Assembly (NCBI GenBank): GCA_963422465.1
Contig: OY730175.1
Location: 1 to 64,000, forward strand
DNA length: 64,000 nucleotides
Source: Lichina pygmaea
Lineage: Eukaryota > Ascomycota > Lichinomycetes > Lichinales > Lichinaceae
Reading direction: 5' to 3'
Positions within the stretch are counted from its first letter, which is position 1, and each line of letters starts with the position of its first letter. Below, piece after piece: positions 26,901 to 27,704 of this stretch. The position numbers and the translations under genes were made by a program. Under the pieces are notes generated by a model, which was not told the DNA's origin, did not search any database, and saw nothing but the letters and a program-made list of their open reading frames with translations.

Positions 26901-27262
26901 GGAAAACAAAGAAACCAAAGACAAAGAAACTTGACTATGTCAAGGTCAGACTATTTTCAGTCAAAGAAAAAACTGGACCAGTCAACATCAGACTGCGACT
27001 ACCGAGAGACACTCAGGTACACCCAAACTTTCACATCTCAATGATCAAATTAGCTGACCAGAGCACACCCTTGCAGGAAACATTTCATTACCAACCAGAG
27101 GAAGAACAGGAATTCAAGGCTGAACAGATCCTGAAGAGAAAAGGTCAGTGATACCTTGTCAAGTGGAAAAACTACCCAGACTCAGAAAATACCTGGGAAC
27201 CACTCAGGAACCTTGCGAACTGCCAGCTCCTCCTGCAGCAGTTCTGGCAGAGGCAGAACTGA
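23963..27262 (+). pseudogene. pol: Element 6 pol
   Basis: Frame -1 to gag from ATG 23963. Protease (active site ALVDSGASGNYIS at about residues 22-35), RT (FTKLDLKGAYNLIRMKEGEEWKT is legible; catalytic YLDN at 25097-25108), RNase H (TDTSDQAVGACLCQQ; DIHDKELLAVVNALKHW), integrase DDE core (DFITKL; ITDRDKLFTSNYW; the Glu region QTEQANQVLE), and a C-terminal chromodomain (EEEQEFKAEQILKRKG; YLVKWKNYPDSENTWE). Stops are few: after IKN, at CAATAG, and around the HHCC region. It would produce and integrate the cDNA if undamaged; the Asp-to-Asn change alone should abolish RT. Confidence 0.9.
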
Positions 27263-27704
27263 ACAGCTTGGCCTACAGCGCAGACATGTCAATGACTGTC
27301 ACTGACAAGTCTTTACCATCCACCTCCATTTTGGCAACAAGGCACTGGAGCTTCTTCTTTGCTCAGCCTTCAGCACTTTCAAGAACCTTTCACTTTCAGG
27401 ACACACAAGCCTGCAGCTCAGCAAGCTGCTCAACAAGAGTATCCCACTTGGCCTCATCAACAGCCAAATCCTCACAAAGGTTATCCTGAGTCATGTTCAG
27501 CAACTCCCAAGAAAGTGACACACAGGACTTCCCACAACAAGTGCATTCAGCACACTTCAATTTATTGTTGTTGTCAGACATTCGGAAGCAGGGCTTGTGG
27601 TTCAAAACACAGAAGTCACACAGAGCAAGTGACACAAAGTTATGATCACAGATCTGGGCTGCCAGTTGGTTTCAGTAAGCAGAGGCACGTGATTTTGCAG
27701 ACAT
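27204..27704 (-). pseudogene. Antisense ORF, B version with all six cysteines, in Element 6
   Basis: Minus strand, 501 bp, ATG at 27704, 45 bp from the 3' LTR. Residues 29-61 carry all six Cys in C-x2-C-x6-C-x11-C-x2-C-x6-C order (CDFCVLNHKPC, then CAECTCCGKSC). The second half has the Gly of the common CxxCxxxGxxC form. The longest open stretch is residues 24-102; TGAs occur at codons 11, 103 and 105. Its last 20 codons overlap the 3' end of pol tail to tail. This is the best copy for modelling the protein, which I do not recognise. Confidence 0.78.

Follow-up and report, generated by a model that had tools for sequence, protein, structure and literature searches.

A conserved antisense gene in a fungal chromodomain Ty3/Gypsy element, a putative zinc-cluster regulator matched to half-site arrays in the element's own long terminal repeat

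Additional genes on the strand opposite to pol have been described in several long terminal repeat (LTR) retrotransposons. In fungi, the gene brtn of the Gypsy element Boty (2011) lies in antisense orientation between pol and the 3' LTR, according to passages of later papers that cite it (PMC7264820, PMC8365987). Antisense additional open reading frames (ORFs) are also attributed, in passages of two reviews, to the plant elements Grande (gene23), RIRE2, Retand (TRP28) and PvRetro13, and the same passages describe the function of such genes in LTR retrotransposons as unknown (PMC7264820, PMC11963269). In human T-cell leukemia virus type 1 (HTLV-1), the antisense strand encodes the bZIP regulator HBZ, which is driven from the 3' LTR in the account given in a part of PMC10186651. 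Here, we analysed 64,000 nucleotides of Lichina pygmaea (Ascomycota; assembly GCA_963422465.1, contig OY730175.1, positions 1 to 64,000; this whole stretch is called the window), in which a chromodomain Ty3/Gypsy element carries a 501-bp frame opposite to pol, between pol and the 3' LTR. This frame is a conserved gene that forms one variable block with the adjoining U3 (the unique 3' region of the LTR) and its arrays of inverted half-sites, and we consider it likely that it encodes a regulator of the element's own LTR.

A first reading made from the letters alone, called here the sequence-only reading, had placed five such frames, each running from ATG to TGA, in the window. All five are present, and they fall into two types, A and B:

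11779..12279, + strand: antisense gene copy c1, type A, internal stops at codons 11 and 105
18416..18916, + strand: antisense gene copy c2, type B, internal stops at codons 11, 103 and 105
27204..27704, - strand: antisense gene copy c3, type B, 501 bp, internal stops at codons 11, 103, 105, 114 and 144
31240..31740, - strand: antisense gene copy c4, type A, internal stops at codons 11, 105 and 135
52202..52702, + strand: antisense gene copy c5, type B, internal stops at codons 11, 41, 103 and 105

The assembly to which the window belongs (32.5 Mb, 8 contigs) was searched three times, with 789, 499 and 506 first-look candidates, of which the best 40, 40 and 150 were scored; together with the window this gave at least 75 distinct copies (44 B and 31 A). 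As these are the best matches only, the true copy number is larger and the sample is biased to well kept copies. The sequence-only reading had also claimed that the frame lacks insertions and deletions, and had named frame-breaking ones in most other copies as a finding that would speak against a gene; in fact 73 of the 75 copies are gapless over 501 bp, the exceptions being L034 with 2 gap positions and L054, which was matched from base 5. The antisense gene is thus kept between pol and the 3' LTR in most of these 75 similarity-selected copies of this genome. For the analysis of selection, nonsynonymous and synonymous differences (N/S) between types A and B were counted from transversions only, because the decay is mostly transitional, and L034 and L054 were excluded. 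With 29 A and 32 B copies (928 pairs), N/S was 0.33 in the antisense frame and 1.02, 3.15, 1.16, 0.61 and 2.10 in the other five frames. Over codons 1-145, which lie outside pol, and with 29 A and 44 B copies, it was 0.31 in the antisense frame (95% bootstrap over codons 0.20-0.49) and 2.17 in the continued pol frame. Constraint extends over the two halves of the protein (N/S 0.24 and 0.38), and columns fixed for a purine/pyrimidine difference number 18, 8 and 28 on the first, second and third antisense codon positions (29 A, 32 B). The check on dN/dS proposed with the sequence-only reading therefore came out in favour of the gene, with purifying selection in the antisense frame and none in the continued pol frame. 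Its estimate by eye of about 70% identity over codons 61-128 was roughly correct (66%, mean of the 928 A-B pairs), while its figure of a third for the sense frame applies to the continued pol frame (35%) and fails for the sense frame that shares third positions with the antisense gene (59%). The latter frame (s1) has an N/S of 0.56-0.61, and its slowest position is its first, which is the antisense second, indicating that it mirrors the antisense frame and has the wrong pattern for a gene. A sense extension of pol was also considered and was rejected, given its N/S and the two codons that are stops in at least 80% of the copies of each type.

A chance open frame opposite a non-coding stretch would be the simplest alternative, and it could appeal to the stops that interrupt all window copies and each of the first 61 genome copies, among which stop-free frames number 0. 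However, the stops lie mainly at CpG codons. The sequence-only reading had held that they are TGA at probable CGA sites, and the first 61 copies contain 169 TGA, 7 TAA and 2 TAG; the frequent stop codons read CGA or CAA in other copies, which fits CpG decay. No internal stop is common to at least 80% of the B copies and one (codon 135) to that share of the A copies; in each of the other five frames, 2 to 13 codons are shared stops of this kind. Approximately 33 of the 150 scored genome matches, counted by eye, are stop-free within the match, so uninterrupted frames exist. Taken with the antisense N/S of 0.31 and the six-cysteine homologues from other sequence sources described below, this leaves chance hardly credible, and we rejected it. 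Among the 61 copies, codons 11, 41, 103, 105, 114 and 135 are CGA, TGA or (except at 135) CAA depending on the copy, a variation at the same antisense codons that indicates CpG decay on both strands.

The encoded protein has the cysteine spacing of fungal zinc-cluster regulators. The Pfam family Zn_clus (PF00172) has the pattern C-x2-C-x6-C-x(5-12)-C-x2-C-x(6-8)-C, and the A and B copies show it, with the cysteine columns 29, 32, 39, 51, 54 and 61 named in the sequence-only reading each conserved in 26-29 of the 29 A copies and in 42-44 of the 44 B copies. Three overlapping profile searches, for the second and third of which the best 120 were listed, found 91 homologues (E<=0.01), 179 (E<=0.01) and at least 226 (E<=0.001, among the best 8000 candidates), including uninterrupted proteins of 165-194 amino acids (aa). 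One of them, P0084, comes from a metagenome-assembled genome called Watsoniomyces obsoletus, and P0185 is annotated as 'hypothetical protein'. The family set used here comprises 186 proteins, 74 of them of at least 150 aa, and 72 of these 74 have the whole six-cysteine pattern, which bears out the Zn(II)2Cys6 spacing claimed earlier; the two exceptions, P0122 and P0170, are without the first three cysteines and start just ahead of the second half. The linker is 7-11 residues long in 104 of 105 pattern proteins and 14 in one, and a seventh cysteine (column 121) is almost invariant in the alignment A4. No Pfam family matches more members than Zn_clus (at E<=1, 22 of the 40 diverse members scanned, against 6 for the next family), and P0145 lies over its curated cut-off (E 0.00022, 21.7 versus 21 bits). 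When profile A4 was compared with PDB, GAL4 stood first and took 4 of 11 rows, with the six cysteines in register at a best E of 0.1; overall, the PDB sequence searches gave weak matches only, to GAL4, Pho7 and coils. The NCBIfam scan gave no interpretable match, and no bZIP domain is among the Pfam families listed, at most 25 per scan, for the window proteins and relatives. P0163 carries a precomputed Pfam accession, PF27583.1, which a direct Pfam scan of P0163 did not return, and a curated family for these proteins may therefore exist. The earlier remark that the basic loop of classical clusters is lacking is only partly right, as the less decayed A copies read R-G-R and the B copies N-H-K in the first loop (35-37); several relatives have few or no basic residues there and carry basic residues in the second half, for example CTRRGRPC. 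The zinc part has a positive net charge in 63 of 72 members, and the stretch of at most 50 residues that begins 60 residues past the last cysteine has a negative one in all 72 (median -8). DNA context for relatives was found neither in IMG/VR nor in prokaryote contigs, so the evidence for the antisense placement comes from this genome only.

Features of the c3 and c4 elements to which the following comparison refers are:

21781..22406, + strand: putative 5' LTR of the c3 element, 84% identical to the c3 3' LTR with 78 gap positions
27113..27262, + strand: c3 pol 3' end, chromodomain-like (start approximate), read from the sequence
27732..27748, + strand: purine-rich tract ahead of the c3 3' LTR, read from the sequence
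27749..28452, + strand: c3 3' LTR, TGTTACGACC...CCGCAACA, 704 bp
27779..27784, - strand: c3 antisense-strand TATAAA, 75-80 bases ahead of the antisense ATG
27850..27855, strand-neutral: CACGTG in the c3 3' LTR
27860..28198, strand-neutral: c3 type-B array, 22 inverted half-sites (TCTCGA/TCGAGA pattern)
28166..28198, strand-neutral: TATA-proximal <<>> block of the c3 array (arrowheads give half-site orientation)
28210..28215, + strand: c3 sense TATA box
31784..32264, + strand: c4 3' LTR, type A
31810..31815, - strand: c4 antisense-strand TATAAA
31909..32013, strand-neutral: c4 type-A array, 8 half-sites (GCTCAC/GTGAGC and related), ending in <<>>
32025..32030, + strand: c4 sense TATA box

The c3 pol stop codon is 27260-27262, and pol and the antisense frame overlap by 59 bp. 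The two LTRs of the presumed single c3 element differ in length, 626 bp (21781-22406) versus 704 bp (27749-28452).

Types A and B have nearly the same pol and different genes. Between c1 (A, 11779) and c3 (B, 27204), pol is mostly 86-100% identical per 50 bases with 0-1 transversion, and this high identity extends to about 250 bp before the antisense gene; the gene itself is about 68% identical, the first part of the LTR is unalignable, and the last 248 bp of the LTR are 94% identical, the A/B alignment resuming at about 28206 in c3 numbering and running to the LTR end. Across the 75 copies, near-fixed purine/pyrimidine differences between A and B occupy 0 of 900 columns in pol from -1200 to -300, 0 of 60 in the pol overlap and 54 of 441 in the remaining gene. 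Transversions per site between the types average 0.023 in pol, against 0.018 and 0.011 within types; for the antisense gene the averages are 0.128 between types and 0.004 and 0.002 within them. The shared pol and shared LTR end indicate that A and B are almost the same element, in which the segment from the pol end to the TATA box exists in two versions. In all 71 copies whose U3 is complete (41 B and 30 A), the gene type equals the U3 type; a narrower motif used earlier on the 75 copies gave 70 alike, 0 unlike and 5 unscored.

Each U3 carries a tandem array of short inverted half-sites, which are of different kinds in the two types. B U3s hold TCTCGA/TCGAGA 3.7 times and the decayed TCTTGA/TCAAGA 9.3 times per U3, the decayed form also making up many half-sites of the c3 array, and A U3s hold GCTCAC/GTGAGC 13.1 times and GCTCGC 1.6 times. 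Own half-sites number 8-22 per U3 in B (median 14) and 5-25 in A (median 17), and the other type's motif occurs 0 times in all 71 U3s, where shuffled sequence averages 0.32 and 0.69 per U3. The array order differs, with 42-bp <> units in B and <<>> units in A, but nearest the TATA box both types have a <<>> block, whose spacing is 9-8-9 in B (38 of 41) and 9-9-9 in A (28 of 30). The start of its last half-site precedes CACTATATAG by 15 bases in B (41 of 41) and by 14 in A (29 of 30). On the other side, an antisense TATAAA starts 75-80 bases ahead of the antisense ATG in 69 of 75 copies, within a region in which BLAST gives no A-B alignment. From the positions of the antisense and sense TATA motifs, the arrays lie between two TATA boxes facing away from each other. 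The distance from LTR start to TATA ranges from 209 to 479 bp across the 71 copies, and this range and the unequal LTRs of the c3 element indicate that the arrays turn over quickly. Such turnover could by itself keep the symmetry, if the arrays functioned as hairpins of RNA or DNA or were no more than a product of tandem slippage and gene conversion, and the length variation just mentioned fits that explanation. However, across two diverged types 66 of 71 U3s have the four TATA-proximal half-sites in the same order and with their spacing kept, and we consider this explanation of the arrays quite improbable.

A third type, D, was found by searching the genome with P0020, a database protein that is neither A nor B. 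It has two good matches, 100% at C3:4397789 and 87% at C7:1389390, and the next three reach 77-78%, two of them being known B copies. The two D U3s contain GCTCGA 8 and 7 times, a motif that occurs 0 times in the 30 A and 41 B U3s, and the D <<>> block is spaced 9-9-9 and ends 14 bases before the TATA motif (a broader motif was used for the layout). As D was looked up after the A/B idea had been formed, it served as a test, with two copies only. In one D copy, L073, whose gene and LTR are on the + strand, an inverted LTR sits at the purine tract; the other, L074, lacks the start of the gene and the first bases of the LTR end next to it.

The gene could also be real and its product act elsewhere, e.g., in host silencing, nuclear import or packaging, with the arrays serving as enhancers for host factors. 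Since reverse transcription derives both U3s from the 3' end, a single template switch could make a joint block of the adjacent gene and U3, and CACGTG, a common host-factor site, adjoins the arrays. Nevertheless, A, B and D live in one genome with the same host factors, and their half-sites differ while the layout and the TATA distance stay. Because host factors are the same for all types, half-sites that shift on both arms and throughout the array, with the layout and TATA distance kept, point to a type-specific dimeric factor, for which the linked antisense gene, with its zinc-cluster pattern, probable coil and acidic part, is the obvious candidate. We therefore regard action elsewhere as unlikely, and the block of gene and U3 with its inverted half-site arrays suggests control of the element's own LTR, one of the two roles proposed in the sequence-only reading; for the other, an effect on host silencing, the analysis gave no indication. 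Column 53 offers a hint as to a contact residue. All 44 B copies and the two D copies have E there, and all 29 A copies have A, V or T, so that the type lacking E is the one whose half-site departs from CTCGA, in a comparison of three types only; across the family, 155 proteins were scored (31 of 186 unscored), with 110 E, 32 K, 7 A, 5 V and 1 H.

Several observations weigh against a zinc-cluster protein that controls its own LTR. First-loop basic residues are fewer than in GAL4, the five window proteins have no Zn_clus match at E<=10 in Pfam, Zn_clus matches 8 of the first 32 relatives with a best E of 0.049, P0145 is the single above-cut-off match among some 60 proteins scanned, and DUF3716 gives weak matches as well (3 of 40). 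With the wider profile A6, GAL4 came fifth of 27 PDB rows (E 0.26), behind four coil-rich or unrelated chains, with Pho7 entries at E 0.49 and 0.53. The A and B half-sites share CTC, which makes the half-site shift modest, and 6 of 75 copies have no antisense TATAAA. The block extends into pol, whose last 300 bp contain 10 columns with near-fixed A-B differences, and since a single switch carries gene and U3 together, linkage alone is no proof of action. The D array is mixed, since the D U3s additionally hold one TCTCGA, 1 and 3 GCTCAC, and 3 and 4 GCTCGC and partly resemble A in the block nearest the TATA box; the LTR beside the gene is inverted in both D copies, which places the D gene on the LTR sense side.

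If the gene does regulate its own LTR, the six-cysteine part would bind DNA, the helical, coiled-coil-like middle would dimerise, and the part towards the C-terminus is acidic. Antisense transcription would probably start from the antisense-strand TATA box in the 3' LTR, and the targets would be the arrays of inverted half-sites that the element itself carries in U3, between the antisense and sense TATA boxes. Gene and sites would vary as one block, so that elements with near-identical pol could keep their own regulator-site pairs in one nucleus. Because of the acidic part and the array upstream of the TATA box, we favour an activator as the likelier direction of control. A variant of the same explanation is a repressor of the own U3, which would provide copy-number control with non-cross-reacting types; the last half-sites, which start 14-15 bases before the TATA motif, and the resemblance of swapped regulator-plus-site blocks on a shared backbone to phage immunity regions speak for it, but the acidic stretch in 72 of 72 members and the many sites upstream of TATA look like an activator and its upstream activating sequence, and we hold the repressor to be somewhat doubtful. 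More tentatively, and at slightly less than an even chance, fungal Gypsy elements may possess private control modules, each consisting of an antisense zinc-cluster regulator and a U3 operator array that are exchanged as a block between elements otherwise alike, with three site specificities in one genome, as a retroelement counterpart of phage immunity types. If this is true, retrotransposons diversify by switching the control module while keeping their enzymes, and a role would be indicated for a large, mostly unnamed protein family.

The element itself belongs to the chromoviruses, with LTRs and with the integrase followed by the chromodomain at the pol end. Pfam Chromo scored 49.2 bits in the relative L073, the only copy tested for it, and the chromodomain in the window was read by eye; in the window copies, SH3_Tf2-1 is over the Pfam cut-off and rve just below it (32.4 versus 32.6 bits). 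RNase H domains at 25307-25885 scored 123.8 bits, and the piece upstream, 24616-25188, had no reverse transcriptase match. Elsewhere in the window, a 649-codon open stretch with the reverse transcriptase domain PF00078 (9382-11328, - strand) adjoins the c1 copy, open frames of 1612 and 889 codons (38861-43699 and 44615-47284, both + strand) have no Pfam match at E<=0.01, and a Polysaccharide deacetylase domain (36476-37498, + strand) probably marks a host gene amid the repeats.

Among known regulators, GAL4 has a coiled coil after the zinc cluster, an acidic tail and inverted upstream sites of the CGG kind. The antisense gene shares the six-cysteine spacing of GAL4-type Zn(II)2Cys6 regulators and differs in its fewer first-loop basic residues, the basic residues of its second half, its retroelement origin and the CTC core of the sites. 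In the immunity regions of temperate phages, a regulator gene and its sites are swapped together on a shared backbone, and several types occur together; here, the setting is a retroelement of a eukaryote, in which binding and repression by the encoded protein are putative. As described in the source cited above, HBZ too lies antisense, has its promoter in the 3' LTR and controls sense transcription of the LTR, as is proposed for our gene, but it is a bZIP protein that keeps CREB-2 and Tax off the LTR and does not work through private sites. The plant ORFs resemble our gene, in the passages about them, in their antisense strand, their place between pol and the 3' LTR, their retention in most copies and the nuclear or DNA-binding role proposed for them, and differ in their domains (TRP28, SMC), in their plant hosts and in a function that is given as unknown in those elements. 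Our gene adds a likely target named purely from sequence, since half-sites of different kinds in the own element are matched to the gene types. A zinc-cluster antisense gene or matched U3 sites in fungal elements were not reported in the titles and abstract openings surveyed, and the word antisense is absent from the main texts of PMC3248453, PMC4427930 and PMC11540331. Boty brtn is an extra antisense gene of a fungal Ty3/Gypsy element between pol and the 3' LTR, as is the gene described here; the passages citing it, by whose description the two are compared, speak neither of a zinc cluster nor of matched sites in U3. Antisense genes of fungal Gypsy and plant elements are thus already known, whereas the zinc-cluster reading and the matched U3 arrays are apparently new.
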